DNA from: Methylomarinum sp. Ch1-1
GTDB taxonomy: Bacteria; Pseudomonadota; Gammaproteobacteria; Methylococcales; Methylomonadaceae
Assembly (NCBI RefSeq): GCF_030717995.2
Contig: NZ_CP157743.1
Coordinates: 3,808,501 to 3,872,500 of the forward strand
Length of the DNA stretch: 64,000 nt
Reading direction: 5' to 3'
The number at the start of each line of letters is the position of its first letter. The first letter of the stretch is position 1. Positions 1,493-7,645 of this stretch are shown here, piece after piece. The position numbers and the translations under genes are program-made. The notes under the pieces were generated by a model. It was not told where the DNA came from. It worked only from the letters and a program-made list of their open reading frames with translations, and ran no database searches.

Positions 1493-4321
1493 ATGAGCAA
1501 CCTTCTTAAACTGTTTCGAGATTCTTCCGCGTTGTACGGCAACAATGCCGTCTATATCGAAGATTTGTACGAGCAATATCTGGAAAACCCCGACTCGGTT
1601 CCGGAAAGCTGGCGAGAGAAATTCAGCAAGATTCAAGACAAAAGCAAGGTCGACATTCCCCATAGCCCGATTGTCGAACGCTTTGAGCAATTAGCCATCA
1701 GCTCTCCCGGAAGACTGGCCAAGTTACAAGGCTTCACCGAAGAAAGCGTCAAGAAACAATCGGCCGTCGCCCGCCTGATCAACCATTACCGGGTCAGGGG
1801 CCATCAGATCGCGGCGAACAATCCGCTGAATAAAGACATTCAGATTCCGTCCGATCTGGAGCCGGCCTATTACGGCTTAGCGGAACCCGATATGGACACG
1901 CTGTTTGACGCCGGCACCCTATATGGGGTTGACCGCCTGCCGCTACGGGAAATTATTAAAACGCTTAAAGAAATTTATTGCGGCAGTATCGGCGCCGAAT
2001 ACATGCATATCGTCGATACCGAATCGAAGCGCTGGATTAAAAACAAGCTGGAAAGCAGCAAGCCGGGATTGGCCGACAATCCCGAGAAACAACAATGGCT
2101 GCTGAAACAGCTCACATCGGCGGAAGGCATCGAAAAGCACCTGCATCGTAAATATGTCGGGCAGAAACGTTTTTCCCTGGAAGGCGGGGAAAGCCTGATC
2201 CCGATATTGGACGAATTGATTCAACGTTCCGGCGAAAACAATGCCAAGGAAGTCGTGATAGGCATGGCCCATCGCGGCCGCCTCAATGTGTTGGTCAACA
2301 TCCTGGGCAAGAGTCCGGCCGCTTTATTCGGGGAATTCGAAGGCACCCATGTGTCCTCGCCCGGCGTTTTGACCGGCGACGTCAAGTATCATCTGGGTTT
2401 TTCCTCCAATATCGCCACGCCGGGCGGACCGATACATATCACCTTGGCCTTCAATCCGTCCCATTTGGAAATCATTAACCCGGTGGTTGAAGGCTCGGTC
2501 AAGGCTCGACAGGACCGGCGCGGCAAAGGCAGTATCGATACCGTGATACCGGTGCTGATCCACGGTGACGCCGCCTTCGCCGGCCAGGGCATCGTCATGG
2601 AAACCCTGAACATGTCGGAAACCCGAGCCTTTTCCACCGGCGGCACGGTGCATATCGTCATCAACAACCAGATTGGCTTCACTACCAGCCATCCGTTCGA
2701 CGCCCGATCCACCCTCTATTGCACCGATGTCGCCAACATGATTCAGGCGCCTGTCTTTCATGTGAACGGCGATGATCCGGAGGCGGTGTTATATGTCACC
2801 CAAATGGCATTGGATTATCGCATGCAGTTTCACAAGGACGTCGTCATCGACCTGATCTGTTACCGCCGACTGGGCCATAACGAAGCCGACGAACCGTCGA
2901 CGACTCAACCGATGATGTACAAACAAATCAAACATCATTCCAGCACACGCCAACTCTATGCGCAAAAACTGATTGAGGCGGGCATCATCAGCGAACAAGA
3001 CGCCCAAGCGATGGAAACCGATTATCAACAAAAGCTGGACCAACAGCAAGTCGTTTCCAGACCGATTCTGGGCAGTGAAATGTATTCATATTCGCAACAA
3101 TGGGATATTTTTCTGCACAGCGATTGGGACAGTCCCGCCGATACTCGAGTGGCCTTGGAGCGTATCCGTTATTGCAACGATAAGATGCAATGCTTGCCCG
3201 CCGGCTTCGAAATGCACCCCCGGGTTGCCAAGGTCATGGAAAACCGTAATAAAATGGCGGCCGGCGCCCTGCCCCTGGACTGGGGCTTCGCCGAAAACTT
3301 GGCCTACGCCACCTTGTTACTGGAAAACCACGAAGTCCGCCTGACCGGACAGGATGTCGGGCGCGGCACGTTTTCCCATCGTCACGCCATCCTGCACAAT
3401 CAAATCAATGGCGAATCCTATATCCCCCTTCAGCATCTGGACAAAAACCAAGCCCGGGCGCAAATCTTCGATTCTTTACTCTCGGAAGCCGGCGTACTCG
3501 GTTTCGAATATGGCTACAGCTCGACGGAGCCGAATAAGCTGGTGGTCTGGGAAGCGCAGTTCGGCGACTTCGCCAACGGTGCGCAAGTCGTCATCGATCA
3601 GTTCATCAGCTCCGGCGAAACCAAATGGGGCCGCTTGAGCGGCCTGGTCATGTTGCTGCCGCATGGTTTTGAGGGCCAAGGGCCCGAGCATTCATCGGCC
3701 CGTCTAGAGCGTTTCCTGCAACTGTGCGCAGACCATAACATTCAGGTCTGTTATCCGACCACGCCGGCGCAGATCTTCCACCTGCTCAGACGACAGCTGA
3801 TCAGACAATACCGCAAACCGTTGATCGTCATGAGCCCGAAAAGCCTGCTGCGGCATAAATTGGCCGTCTCCACGCTGGAAGACTTGACCAATGGCCGCTT
3901 CCTAACGGTCATTGGAGAGCAGGACGACATCAAGCCGGCCGAAGTCAGCCGCTTGATCTTATGCGCCGGAAAAATTTATTATGACTTGCTGGAAGTGCGG
4001 CGTCAGGATGAGCTGAAACATATCGCCATCGTCCGTATCGAACAGCTATACCCTTTTCCCGATAAACTTTTCAGAAAAGAATTGAAAAAATATCCGAATC
4101 TCGAATCGATCGTCTGGTGTCAGGAAGAGCCGAAAAACCAGGGAGCCTGGTATCAAAGCAAACATCACTTCTACAATAACCTGGAAAAAGACATCACCAT
4201 TACCTATGCAGGGAGGGCCCCGTCGGCGGCGCCCGCGGTCGGCAACTTCAGAACCCATATCAAAGAACAAAGAGCCGTCGTGCATGCGGCCTTATACGGA
4301 CAAAACAAAGGTAAACAATAA
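1493..4321 (+). CDS. sucA: 2-oxoglutarate dehydrogenase E1 component
   Basis: This is the thiamine-diphosphate-dependent E1 subunit, which decarboxylates 2-oxoglutarate and succinylates the lipoyl group of E2 in the TCA cycle. At 942 residues it has the family length (E. coli about 933). It starts with the typical E2-binding segment ([19 protein letters not shown]). The ThDP and active-site regions follow in order: [11 protein letters not shown] near residue 258, GDAAFAGQG near 355, the [12 protein letters not shown] segment near 390, [11 protein letters not shown] near 460, and the C-terminal transketolase-like half with [10 protein letters not shown] and [15 protein letters not shown]. The ATG at 1493 gives the conserved N-terminus. 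Its stop overlaps the sucB start (TAATG), so the two genes are translationally coupled. Confidence 0.97.
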
Positions 4322-5544
4322 TGAGCTTTGAAATTTTGGTGCCGGAACTTCCCGAATCAGTCTCCGATGCAACCCTGGTCAGCTGGCATAAACAACCCGG
4401 CGATTGGGTCGACAAAGATGACAATCTGGTTGATTTGGAAACCGACAAGGTCGTGCTCGAAGTTCCGGCGCCGGTGTCCGGCATCTTGAGCAAGATATTA
4501 AAAACCAACGGCTCGACGGTGATCGGCGGCGATTTGCTGGCCTTGCTGGAAGAAAAGGAAAAACCGGAAAAAGCGCCCGCCGAAAGCATGCAAATCAGCG
4601 AGACCCATGTCGACGACATTCCTCTGAGTCCGGCGGTGCGCCGTCTGATCCAGGAGAATCAACTCGACCCGAGCGCGATACTGGGTTCCGGCAAACATGG
4701 CCGCATCCTGAAGAGCGATGTGCTCGAATACTTGGAAAAACAAGCCGGCAGTACTGAAAAAACCAAAGGCGAAGAAAAAGCCAAGGAAACGACAAAAACG
4801 GAGCAGAAAAAAAGCCCGCAGCCATCGACTGCCGTCTCCAGCTTGCGTCCGGAACAACGCGTGCCGATGACGCGCTTGCGGGCAAAGATCGCCGAGCGCT
4901 TGTTGCAAGCCCAGCAGAATGCCGCCATGCTGACCACCTTCAACGAAGTCAACATGCAGGCCGTCATCGACCTGAGACACCAATACAAAGCGCGCTTCGA
5001 ACAAAAACACGAGGTCAAACTCGGCTTCATGTCTTTCTTTGTCAAGGCCTCGATCGAGGCGTTGAGGCGTTTTCCGGCGATCAATGCTTCGATTGACGAC
5101 AACGATATTATTTATCACGGCTATTACGATATCGGCATCGCCGTCACCACGCCTCGCGGCCTGATCGTGCCGGTCCTGCGGGACGCCGACCAGCTGGACT
5201 TCGCCGGCATCGAAAAATGCATCGCCGAATATGGCAACAAGGCGCGCGAAGGCTCGCTGAGCGTCGACGATTTGACCGGCGGCACCTTCACGATCACCAA
5301 TGGCGGTATTTTCGGATCCATGTTGTCCACGCCGATTCTAAACCCGCCGCAATGCGCGATCTTGGGCATGCATGCCATCAAGGAGCGCCCTGTCGTCGAA
5401 GACGGCGAAATCGTCATTCGTCCGATTATGTACCTGGCGCTATCCTATGATCATCGCCTCGTCGACGGCAAAGAAGCGGTGCAGTTCCTAGGAACTATCA
5501 AGGAATGCCTGGAAGCCCCCGCCCACCTGTTACTAAATATATAG
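4321..5544 (+). CDS. sucB: Dihydrolipoyllysine succinyltransferase (E2 of 2-oxoglutarate dehydrogenase)
   Basis: This 407-residue core subunit of the complex transfers the succinyl group from lipoate to CoA. The single lipoyl domain (about 1-77) has the lipoylated lysine in [14 protein letters not shown] peripheral-subunit-binding domain (about 100-137, [10 protein letters not shown] ... GRILKSDVL) docks E3. An Ala/Lys/Glu-rich linker follows, and then the catalytic domain with the active-site histidine and aspartate in SYDHRLVDG near residue 378. All key residues look intact, so E2 itself appears functional. It shares one base with the sucA stop and is followed after 7 bp by the E3-like gene. 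Confidence 0.97.
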
Positions 5545-5551
5545 AAAGCTT

Positions 5552-6991
5552 ATGTCTACAGCCCATTATGATGTCATAGTTATCGGTGCCGGACCCGCGG
5601 GTTACGTGGCCGCGATTCGTTGCGCGCAATTGGGCCTGAAAACCGCTTGCGTGGACAATTGGCGCAACCATAATGGCGACGCCAGACTCGGAGGCACTTT
5701 CATTAACGCCGGCTGCATTTCCTCGATGGCCTTATTGGAGTCGGCGAAAATTTATCAATTGCTGCGCGGGGATATCAAATCACACGGCATCAAATTCGAT
5801 AACTTGACGCTGGACGTCGGCAAGATGGTAGAGCGAAAAAACCAGACCACGGCAAAATTGAGCCGCCAAATCAAGGATATTTTCGATCACCTCGAGATCG
5901 AATGCATCCATGCCCATGGCAAATTACTGTCTGCTAAACAGGTCGAAATCAACCCGTTGAACGAGCAGCCGCGTTATGTTGTCGAAGCGGATAACATCAT
6001 ACTGGCGACCGGCTCGAAACCCATAGGACTGCCCTGCGCGGCTCAACACCATGATTTGATCATCGATTCCTCCCAAGCCTTGAATCTGAGATCGGTGCCG
6101 AAGAAGCTCGGCATCATCGGCGCCGGCATCATCGGTCTGGAACTGGCCGGCATCTGGAATAAACTGGGCGCCAAGGTAGTGGTGCTGGAAGCGCAGGAAT
6201 CTTTCTTGACCGCAGCCGACCAGCAAATCGCCCAGGAAGCCTATCTGATTTGCAATCAACAGGGTCTCGATATCCGTCTCGGCGCTAGAGTCGTTTCCAC
6301 CCTTGTCAAGGATGGCCGCGTCAAACTCGAATACCAGGATCACGAAGGCACACATAGTCTGCAGCTCGATAAACTGATCGTCGCCTCCGGGCGGCAACCC
6401 AATTCGGATAACCTGACGGCAGCGGAAGTCGATTTGCTGCTGGACGAAAATGGCTTCGTGCATGTCGATGAAAACTGCAGCACCTCCTTACCCGGAGTCT
6501 ATGCGATCGGCGACCTGACGCTGCTGGGACCGATGTTGGCGCATAAAGGCCTGGAAGAAGGCGTTTTTGTTGCCGAACAGATTGCCGAACAACACAACTC
6601 CATCAATTATGCCATCATCCCCAATGTCATCTATACCGATCCGGAAATCGCCTGGGTCGGACAAACCGAACAGGCCCTAAAAGCCATCGGCGAAAACTAC
6701 AGGGTCGGCATTTTTCCCTTTAAGGCCTCGGCCCGAGCGCAATCCTTGGATAAACCCGAGGGCATGGTCAAAATTATCACCCAGGCCGATACCGATATTA
6801 TCTTGGGCGTACACATCATCGGCGTACGCGCCTCCGATCTGATCGCCGAAGCGGTGCTAGCGATGGAGTTTTCCGCCAGCGCCGAAGACCTGGCCAGAAC
6901 GATACACGCCCACCCGACTATGTCGGAAACCCTGCATGAAGCCGCTTTGGCATTGGCCGACCGCGCCCTGCATTTGCCGCCAGGTTATTAA
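5552..6991 (+). CDS. lpdA: Dihydrolipoyl dehydrogenase-like E3 lacking one redox cysteine
   Basis: This 479-residue flavoprotein has the E3 layout: FAD-binding GAGPAG at residues 12-17, NAD-binding GAGIIG near 190, a second FAD motif with YAIGDLT near 315, and the C-terminal interface pair H454/E459 in HAHPTMSE. The expected redox disulfide motif GGTCLNVGCIPSK reads GGTFINAGCISSM. The first cysteine is therefore Phe50, the second (Cys55) remains, and the usual lysine is Met59. The codons are unambiguous (act ttc att aac ... ggc tgc att). E3 normally reoxidises dihydrolipoamide through that Cys pair, so ordinary E3 chemistry should be impaired. It sits 7 bp after sucB, as a normal operon member. 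It may be a repurposed or inactive E3. Confidence 0.85.
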   Translation: MSTAHYDVIVIGAGPAGYVAAIRCAQLGLKTACVDNWRNHNGDARLGGTFINAGCISSMALLESAKIYQLLRGDIKSHGIKFDNLTLDVGKMVERKNQTTAKLSRQIKDIFDHLEIECIHAHGKLLSAKQVEINPLNEQPRYVVEADNIILATGSKPIGLPCAAQHHDLIIDSSQALNLRSVPKKLGIIGAGIIGLELAGIWNKLGAKVVVLEAQESFLTAADQQIAQEAYLICNQQGLDIRLGARVVSTLVKDGRVKLEYQDHEGTHSLQLDKLIVASGRQPNSDNLTAAEVDLLLDENGFVHVDENCSTSLPGVYAIGDLTLLGPMLAHKGLEEGVFVAEQIAEQHNSINYAIIPNVIYTDPEIAWVGQTEQALKAIGENYRVGIFPFKASARAQSLDKPEGMVKIITQADTDIILGVHIIGVRASDLIAEAVLAMEFSASAEDLARTIHAHPTMSETLHEAALALADRALHLPPGY

Positions 6992-7000
6992 CCCAAAGAT

Positions 7001-7645
7001 ATGAGTCTTAGATATTCCATTATTCCAGTCACGCCCTATCAACAAAACTGTTCGCTGCTGATCTGCGAACAAACCGGCAAAGCCGCCGTCGTCGACCCCG
7101 GCGGCGAACTTGAACTTATCTTACAAAAGGCGGCCAAGGAAAATGTCACGTTGGAATCCATTCTAGTCACCCATGGCCATCTCGACCATGTCGGCGGCGT
7201 TGCCGAACTGGCCGACAAACTAACTCTGCCGATATACGGCCCGCAAGCCGAGGACGCCTTCTGGATAGATTCGCTGCCGGAACAATGCCGTTCCTTCGGC
7301 TTTCCGCATTGCGATAGTTTTATCCCGGACCGCTGGCTGAACGATGGCGATAGCGTTGAAGTCGGCAATGAAACGCTGCAGGTTCTGCACTGTCCCGGTC
7401 ATACCCCCGGCCATATTGTTTTCTTCAGCCCAAGCGCCCGTCTGGCGGTGGTCGGCGACGTCTTATTCAACGGTTCGATAGGCCGCACCGACTTTCCGAA
7501 AGGCGATTTCCAAACTCTGATTGCATCGATTCAGCATAAACTCTGGCCGCTGGGTGAGGATGTCGCCTTCATCCCCGGCCATGGACCGATGTCGACCTTC
7601 GGCGAGGAAATGCGTACGAACCCTTTCGTCGGCAACCGGGATTAA
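7001..7645 (+). CDS. Metallo-beta-lactamase-fold hydrolase (glyoxalase II-like, YcbL type)
   Basis: This 214-residue protein has the metallo-beta-lactamase fold. Zinc ligands are visible in THGHLDHVGG (about residues 48-57), HCPGHTPGH (about 131-139), the GD of VVGDVLF and the final histidine in FIPGHGP near residue 190. The order and length fit the small glyoxalase-II-like YcbL group, which cleaves thioesters such as S-lactoylglutathione. It lies 9 bp after lpdA on the same strand, so it is probably cotranscribed with the dehydrogenase genes. The exact substrate cannot be read from the sequence. Confidence 0.85.
   Translation: MSLRYSIIPVTPYQQNCSLLICEQTGKAAVVDPGGELELILQKAAKENVTLESILVTHGHLDHVGGVAELADKLTLPIYGPQAEDAFWIDSLPEQCRSFGFPHCDSFIPDRWLNDGDSVEVGNETLQVLHCPGHTPGHIVFFSPSARLAVVGDVLFNGSIGRTDFPKGDFQTLIASIQHKLWPLGEDVAFIPGHGPMSTFGEEMRTNPFVGNRD

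Follow-up and report, generated by a model that had tools for sequence, protein, structure and literature searches.

The E3 position in the sucAB operon of Methylomarinum sp. Ch1-1 is occupied by a gene whose product resembles dihydrolipoyl dehydrogenase (Lpd) but lacks the first of the two redox-active cysteines. This locus raises the question of whether such a protein can serve as the E3 of the 2-oxoglutarate dehydrogenase (OGDH) complex, and whether it has a bearing on the low OGDH activity reported for type I methanotrophs. A sequence-only reading had suggested a catalytically altered or regulatory subunit, or a complex that borrows another E3. The window, the whole stretch of 64,000 nucleotides that was analysed, contains the following features of interest.

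1493..4321, plus strand: sucA, 2-oxoglutarate dehydrogenase E1, 942 aa (NCBIfam NF006914, 1346 bits, cut-off 764)
4321..5544, plus strand: sucB, dihydrolipoyl succinyltransferase E2, 407 aa (NF004309, 578 bits, cut-off 449)
5552..6991, plus strand: disulfide-less E3 homolog (pseudo-E3), 479 aa (sequence, NCBIfam and ortholog comparison)
5585..5602, plus strand: FAD GxGxxG motif, residues 12-17 (sequence; alignment of 97 pseudo-E3 rows)
5690..5728, plus strand: altered active-site loop, residues 47-59, GGTFINAGCISSM (translation, alignment)
6119..6136, plus strand: NAD GxGxxG motif, residues 190-195 (sequence; alignment of 97 pseudo-E3 rows)
6911..6928, plus strand: His454-Glu459 pair, both present (His454 at 6911-6913, Glu459 at 6926-6928)
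7001..7645, plus strand: metallo-beta-lactamase-superfamily gene (PF00753), downstream of pseudo-E3

The open reading frames of sucA and sucB overlap by one base, and pseudo-E3 starts 7 nt past the end of sucB. Codon 50 is TTC (5699-5701) and gives Phe50 where canonical E3 has its first cysteine (Cys1). The second cysteine (Cys2) is retained as Cys55, encoded by TGC (5714-5716). Codon 59 is ATG (5726-5728), which places Met59 where canonical E3 has the flavin-side lysine of GCxPSK. The sequence-only reading had described both substitutions, together with intact FAD and NAD sites, an intact His454-Glu459 pair and normal sucA and sucB. All of this was borne out, the first four points in the ORF at 5552-6991 and the last by scores above the equivalog cut-offs. 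A further change, absent from that reading, is Ser57 in place of the proline that follows Cys2 in 36/36 canonical rows.

The predicted fold is unchanged, the model of pseudo-E3 (pLDDT 83.8) having a TM-score of 0.94 to Pseudomonas LpdG. At the loop, the Lpd from Pseudomonas that is the nearest enzyme of known structure reads GGTCLNVGCIPSK. Pseudo-E3 resembles canonical Lpd (Pseudomonas LpdG, 5u8u; Azotobacter, 3lad) in length and fold, in its motifs for FAD and NAD and in the His-Glu pair, with 50-51 percent of residues identical when the folds are aligned, and differs in the loop and in a one-residue insertion at position 323 that is absent from 36/36 canonical rows. The lipoamide_DH model TIGR01350 gives it 473 bits (cut-off 409), higher than the soluble pyridine nucleotide transhydrogenase model NF003585 (299 bits, cut-off 465), and an identity as that transhydrogenase was rejected. 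Since sucA, sucB and pseudo-E3 all lie above curated NCBIfam cut-offs, the label of dihydrolipoyl dehydrogenase would come automatically. The protein has the family sequence and fold and the His-Glu pair of an E3, and has neither the CxxxxC nor the flavin-side lysine. Judged by its sequence, it is not an E3 by the defining redox centre, and annotations or metabolic models that treat the gene as a functional lpd are probably wrong.

The alteration extends across the family. The family sample comprised 151 genomes, of which 116 have an ortholog covering the loop, 2 have pieces only (G008, G064) and 33 have none; in L040, L122 and L339, which belong to the 116, the match stops short at one end. 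The loop was read in all 116, and both Cys1 and the lysine are missing from every one (0/116 each). This rules out a sequencing error at codon 50 as well as a lone mutant. The alignment of many Methylococcales E3 proteins, put forward by the sequence-only reading as a check, finds the loss of Cys1 fixed in the family, with Cys2 kept in 90/116.

Position 50 is Tyr in 60 orthologs, Phe in 27 and His in 27 (114 together), with one Asn and one Val. Where Cys2 is lost, in 26, position 55 holds Ser (15), Gly (7), Asn (2), Asp (1) or Thr (1). The proline of canonical Lpd at position 57 is lost in 106 of the 116, which have Ala (65), Ser (34), Gly (4), Glu (2) or Thr (1), and remains in 10. Position 59 is occupied by Met (48), Ile (35), Leu (18) or Val (14), 115 in all, and once by Phe. 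The catalytic pair is less uniformly altered: position 454 is His in 96, Arg in 13, Tyr in 6 and Asn in 1, and position 459 is Glu in 98, Lys in 11, Asp in 3 and Ser in 3, with one unaligned. In five loci (L058, L059, L216, L218, L340) the GG ahead of the lost Cys1 has become KD (KDTHLNTG). The copy in G008 (L342; G008:C2:2248000-2252000), with Tyr50, Ser55 and Met59, aligns as three pieces with breaks near A runs, which may be a lesion or a sequencing error.

At the level of the order, 57 of 121 genomes match at 1e-100, and the motifs of all 24 that lie outside the family were read. Cys1, Cys2 and Lys are kept in 20/20 from families f7 and f8, the former including Cycloclasticus (G173, G176). 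Cys1 and Lys are lost in f2 (G151) and f5 (G154), and f6 (G166, G178) has Ser for Cys1 with Lys kept. No sucAB was seen beside the two f6 homologs (L054, L055), whose motifs are GGTSLLNGCIPAK and GGASLLNGCIPAK; the neighbours of L054 are what we take, from their sequences, to be lysyl-tRNA synthetase-, threonine synthase- and citramalate synthase-like genes. Matches to PF02461, the AMO/pMMO family of copper monooxygenase A subunits, occur in 25/26 family genomes tested and also, with weaker scores, in 9/11 f7 and f8 genomes; there was none in G003, G154, G151 and G178. As most of the f7 and f8 genomes tested carry PF02461 yet have a canonical E3, the cysteine loss need not be tied to methane oxidation as such, the label 'methanotroph' resting on named genera.

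In the wider class, the canonical motif was present in 28/28 loci of each of two reads, 54 genomes in total (G241 and G282 are in both). The second read took the best 28 loci among 144 matching genomes, and sucB lies beside E3 in 27 of these 28. Named loci were matched with alignment A1 as query, a single-protein query having given no match. Among the best 80 of 589, the site is lost in 16, every one of them titled Methylococcaceae, Methylococcales, Methylobacter, Methylovulum or Crenothrix; it reads Cys, Cys and Lys in the other 64, which include two Cycloclasticus.

Of the 137 rows in the tree, 101 lack Cys1, and all of these fall on one side of one branch, with support of 99. When the loop and His-Glu columns were removed, position 50 changed once on the tree, Cys2 nine times, His454 seven times and Glu459 six times. 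Both trees were made by a quick method and contain some long branches, and neither has its root placed. The direction is read as loss rather than gain from the cysteine that class-level relatives and the E3 of pyruvate dehydrogenase (PDH) have. The Cys-less state is thus old, with later repeated loss of the remaining thiol machinery.

The rest of the protein is maintained by purifying selection. The median omega of pseudo-E3 is 0.091 (Nei-Gojobori, 69 pairs, dS 0.2-1.2), a value that lacks a canonical counterpart since no canonical E3 pairs lie in the chosen dS range. Medians for sucB and sucA, over the fewer pairs that have them, are 0.084 and 0.047. The 20 closest pseudo-E3 pairs give 0.02-0.13. 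Residues G190, G192, G195, G320, D321, H331 and K332 are present in 97/97 pseudo-E3 rows; the FAD glycines G12 and G14 are present in 96 of these rows and G17 in 93. Loop 44-62 exceeds canonical E3 in entropy by a factor of 3.3, the factor being 0.65-1.2 for five other compared stretches; the two sets are of unequal breadth (58 versus 55 percent mean identity after subsampling), and the comparison is relied on for nothing but the large difference at the loop.

Genomic context was counted in 97 loci fetched with flanks, one of which (L040) begins at a contig end; 19 other orthologs with short flanks were left out. The sucB gene lies just upstream of pseudo-E3 in 92/97, at 8-66 nt in 88 and at 365-426 nt in 4, measured between aligned ends. 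It was not found upstream in four loci, within the 1.5 kb seen for L015 and L017 and the 5 kb seen for L096 and L108. These four genomes have sucB elsewhere, in G016 at 1.7 Mb on the same contig, and an intact pseudo-E3 gene. When segments from 18 loci were compared, the window's sucB resembled the other rows both in its lipoyl sequence, ETDKVVLEV, and in the region of the E3-binding domain, at what we take to be the positions of these domains.

Downstream, a metallo-beta-lactamase-type gene follows pseudo-E3 in five same-genus loci, which are the only 5 of the 97; a downstream flank of at least 700 nt was available in 36/97. In L015 (1-1486), the metallo-beta-lactamase-type gene after E3 is divided in two by a transposase-like ORF.

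Every sampled genome of three family genera lacks pseudo-E3, which must therefore have a function that these genera can do without. In Methylomonas (g12, including Methylomonas sp. LL1, G094), sucA and sucB are adjacent in 14/14 genomes, none of which has a match to pseudo-E3 at 1e-100. A metallo-beta-lactamase-type gene is also found 3' of sucAB in this genus; in G061, sucB is followed by an unrelated 179-aa ORF and then by this gene. The simplest reading of the G061 arrangement would be that E3 was lost from between sucB and the metallo-beta-lactamase-type gene. Beside sucB, an E3 was found neither in g12 nor in the flanks fetched from G153, G160, G063, G013, G047, G021, G155 and G158. The sucA-sucB pair of genus g21 (G047, G021; L319, L320) is more divergent, with an identity of about 55-60 percent, and has no E3; in L319 it adjoins what are presumably topoisomerase IV-like genes.

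A second lpd, which the sequence-only reading had proposed to look for, is present in the genome. The canonical E3 L002 lies in an aceE-E2-E3 cluster (L002/L284), has the motif GGVCLNVGCIPSK and scores 515 bits with lipoamide_DH. The aceE of this cluster scores 1517 bits (cut-off 860), and the acetyltransferase-type E2 scores 551 bits, 1 bit below its cut-off. A PDH-type E3 was found in 32/32 tested genomes, with Cys, Cys and Lys intact in the 30/30 loci read.

Other disulfide reductase relatives in the same genome were considered as E3 candidates. L003 (787-2934; G000:C2 near 2891999) is a protein of 715 aa that joins a VTT membrane domain to a disulfide reductase carrying GGDCLNTGCVPSK. It is 4 bits over the lipoamide_DH cut-off, and was rejected as a clear E3 since FAD-containing oxidoreductases score higher. 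L004 and L005 were rejected for scores over the cut-offs for FAD-containing oxidoreductase and glutathione reductase, respectively, and L006 was scanned as a piece only. From these sequence scores, L002 is the clear E3 of the genome, but not provably the sole one. L006 and L007 (G000:C2:3168659-3170015) are two overlapping matches in different frames to one disulfide-reductase-like gene, as if frameshifted. L010 (1477-2808; G000:C2 near 143174) encodes a second Lpd-like protein of 443 aa (NF004939, 300 bits, cut-off 435), in whose sequence the position normally taken by the cysteine pair has none.

Flavoproteins of the Lpd type without a complete disulfide are found elsewhere, among them yeast Irc15p, the soluble transhydrogenase (NF003585) and the LpdA of Mycobacterium tuberculosis, which we take to be Rv3303c. 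Irc15p is an Lpd1 paralog and FAD-binding dimer in which the Cys pair is replaced by Tyr and Ala and the His-Glu pair is kept (PMC6296175). Its flavin is reduced by NADH, with menadione and ferricyanide accepting electrons and O2 doing so slowly, and the protein is unreactive with lipoamide (PMC6296175). The sequence of pseudo-E3 is similar in its broken Cys pair and in keeping the His-Glu pair and FAD site, but still has Cys2. The comparison is one of working likeness and not a claim of family. Irc15p is a eukaryotic microtubule-associated duplicate that is not encoded with OGDH, whereas pseudo-E3 is, and the two probably arose independently. According to the same paper, LpdA is an Lpd homolog that, like pseudo-E3, lacks one Cys, and acts as a quinone reductase; unlike pseudo-E3, it also lacks the His-Glu pair (PMC6296175). 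The transhydrogenase is described there as an Lpd-related flavoprotein without at least one redox Cys (PMC6296175), a trait that pseudo-E3 shares.

The explanation we favour, and regard as moderately probable, is that pseudo-E3 has no thiol route for oxidising dihydrolipoamide, that the PDH E3 serves OGDH, and that pseudo-E3 is a redox-sensing or structural subunit. A true E3 of the sucAB operon would have lost Cys1 once, in the ancestor of the family and some related families of the order. The active-site loop would then have drifted, with the fold, FAD site and NAD site kept under selection. By established Lpd chemistry, pseudo-E3 should be unable to move electrons from dihydrolipoamide to FAD via a disulfide. 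Gene content suggests that E3 turnover of OGDH is carried out by the canonical PDH E3. Most likely, pseudo-E3 has kept the ability to bind FAD and NAD(H), and it probably also retains its docking on SucB. Its chemistry would be expected to be like that of Irc15p, reducible by NADH, active with quinone-like acceptors, slow with O2 and dead with lipoamide. Against this explanation, the retention of Cys2 in 90/116, His in 96/116 and Glu in 98/116 suggests that some thiol or proton chemistry could persist. Against borrowing from PDH in particular, L003 has an intact CxxxxC and is also over the lipoamide_DH cut-off.

The reported physiology agrees with an OGDH complex that relies on the PDH E3, and pseudo-E3 may also act as a brake. 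In the latter case pseudo-E3 would be a dominant-negative subunit docked on the OGDH E2, filling the E3 seats of SucB, excluding the PDH E3 and so throttling the TCA cycle at 2-oxoglutarate. The block may be tuned by NAD(H), and would explain low OGDH activity where the protein is present. This we consider rather unlikely, although the E3-binding domain region of sucB looks ordinary and sucB lies just upstream in 92/97 loci. In M. alcaliphilum 20Z, NAD-linked OGDH is given as N.D. and PDH as 120 nmol/min/mg on methane and 290 nmol/min/mg on methanol (PMC5802761). This strain (Methylotuvimicrobium alcaliphilum 20Z, G037) has the pseudo-E3, its sucAB-linked L027 reading GGTYINAGCVSSM, and a canonical PDH E3 (L297). 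Methylomonas, without the gene, is argued in the case of strain DH-1 to have OGDH as the sole route at 2-oxoglutarate; an sdh mutant accumulates succinate, but that paper does not show these mutant data (PMC6373157). It has also been reported that nearly all type I methanotrophs, including M. capsulatus, which has the OGDH genes, lack OGDH activity (PMC517821). Given this report and the several genomes of the order without any E3 beside sucB, pseudo-E3 is not needed for low activity everywhere. The intact pseudo-E3 genes apart from sucB in four loci likewise argue against a brake.

An alternative in which pseudo-E3 is a working E3 by another route is improbable. The dihydrolipoyl dithiol would reduce the flavin directly, or electrons would pass to quinone, giving an NAD-independent OGDH. 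Such a route would agree with the retained FAD, NAD and, for the most part, His-Glu sites, with the N.D. entry for NAD-linked OGDH in 20Z (PMC5802761) and with the complete TCA cycle reported for M. buryatense, where the figure for an oxidase mutant is 45 percent of de novo malate and that for the wild type is similar (PMC5652258). It is opposed by Irc15p, which has a similar site and is described as unreactive with lipoamide (PMC6296175), by the seven and six changes on the tree of the His and Glu it would need, and by the other routes at the 2-oxoglutarate node described for 20Z and M. buryatense (PMC5802761, PMC6373157). That the gene is functionless and decaying is very improbable: its absence from three genera and its broken copy in G008 would suit decay, but the omega of 0.02-0.13 in the closest pairs, the 116 orthologs without internal break and the intact copies in four loci away from sucB speak for a maintained protein. 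The proposal of the sequence-only reading is partly supported: the E3 is changed in its catalytic centre, the change has become fixed across the lineage, and the genome encodes a canonical E3 that the complex could borrow. The link between pseudo-E3 and low OGDH activity is only suggestive.

The sucAB operon of this Methylococcales family thus holds a disulfide-less E3 homolog under selection that is real, conserved and apparently undescribed, no earlier description of a disulfide-less sucAB E3 having been found in the open-licence literature. To the yeast example Irc15p it adds an Lpd pseudoenzyme from bacteria that is encoded in an operon. The family-wide loss of the redox centre, the intact PDH copy and Methylomonas without the gene provide natural controls for the old OGDH puzzle.

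A bypass through 2-oxoglutarate:ferredoxin oxidoreductase was also sought in the genome, where TIGR03710 had no match over its cut-off; sub-cut-off matches to this model arise in all 14 control genomes. A weak 2-oxoacid:ferredoxin oxidoreductase-like cluster (L283; G000:C2:3712500-3720500) adjoins an amino-acid dehydrogenase-like gene.
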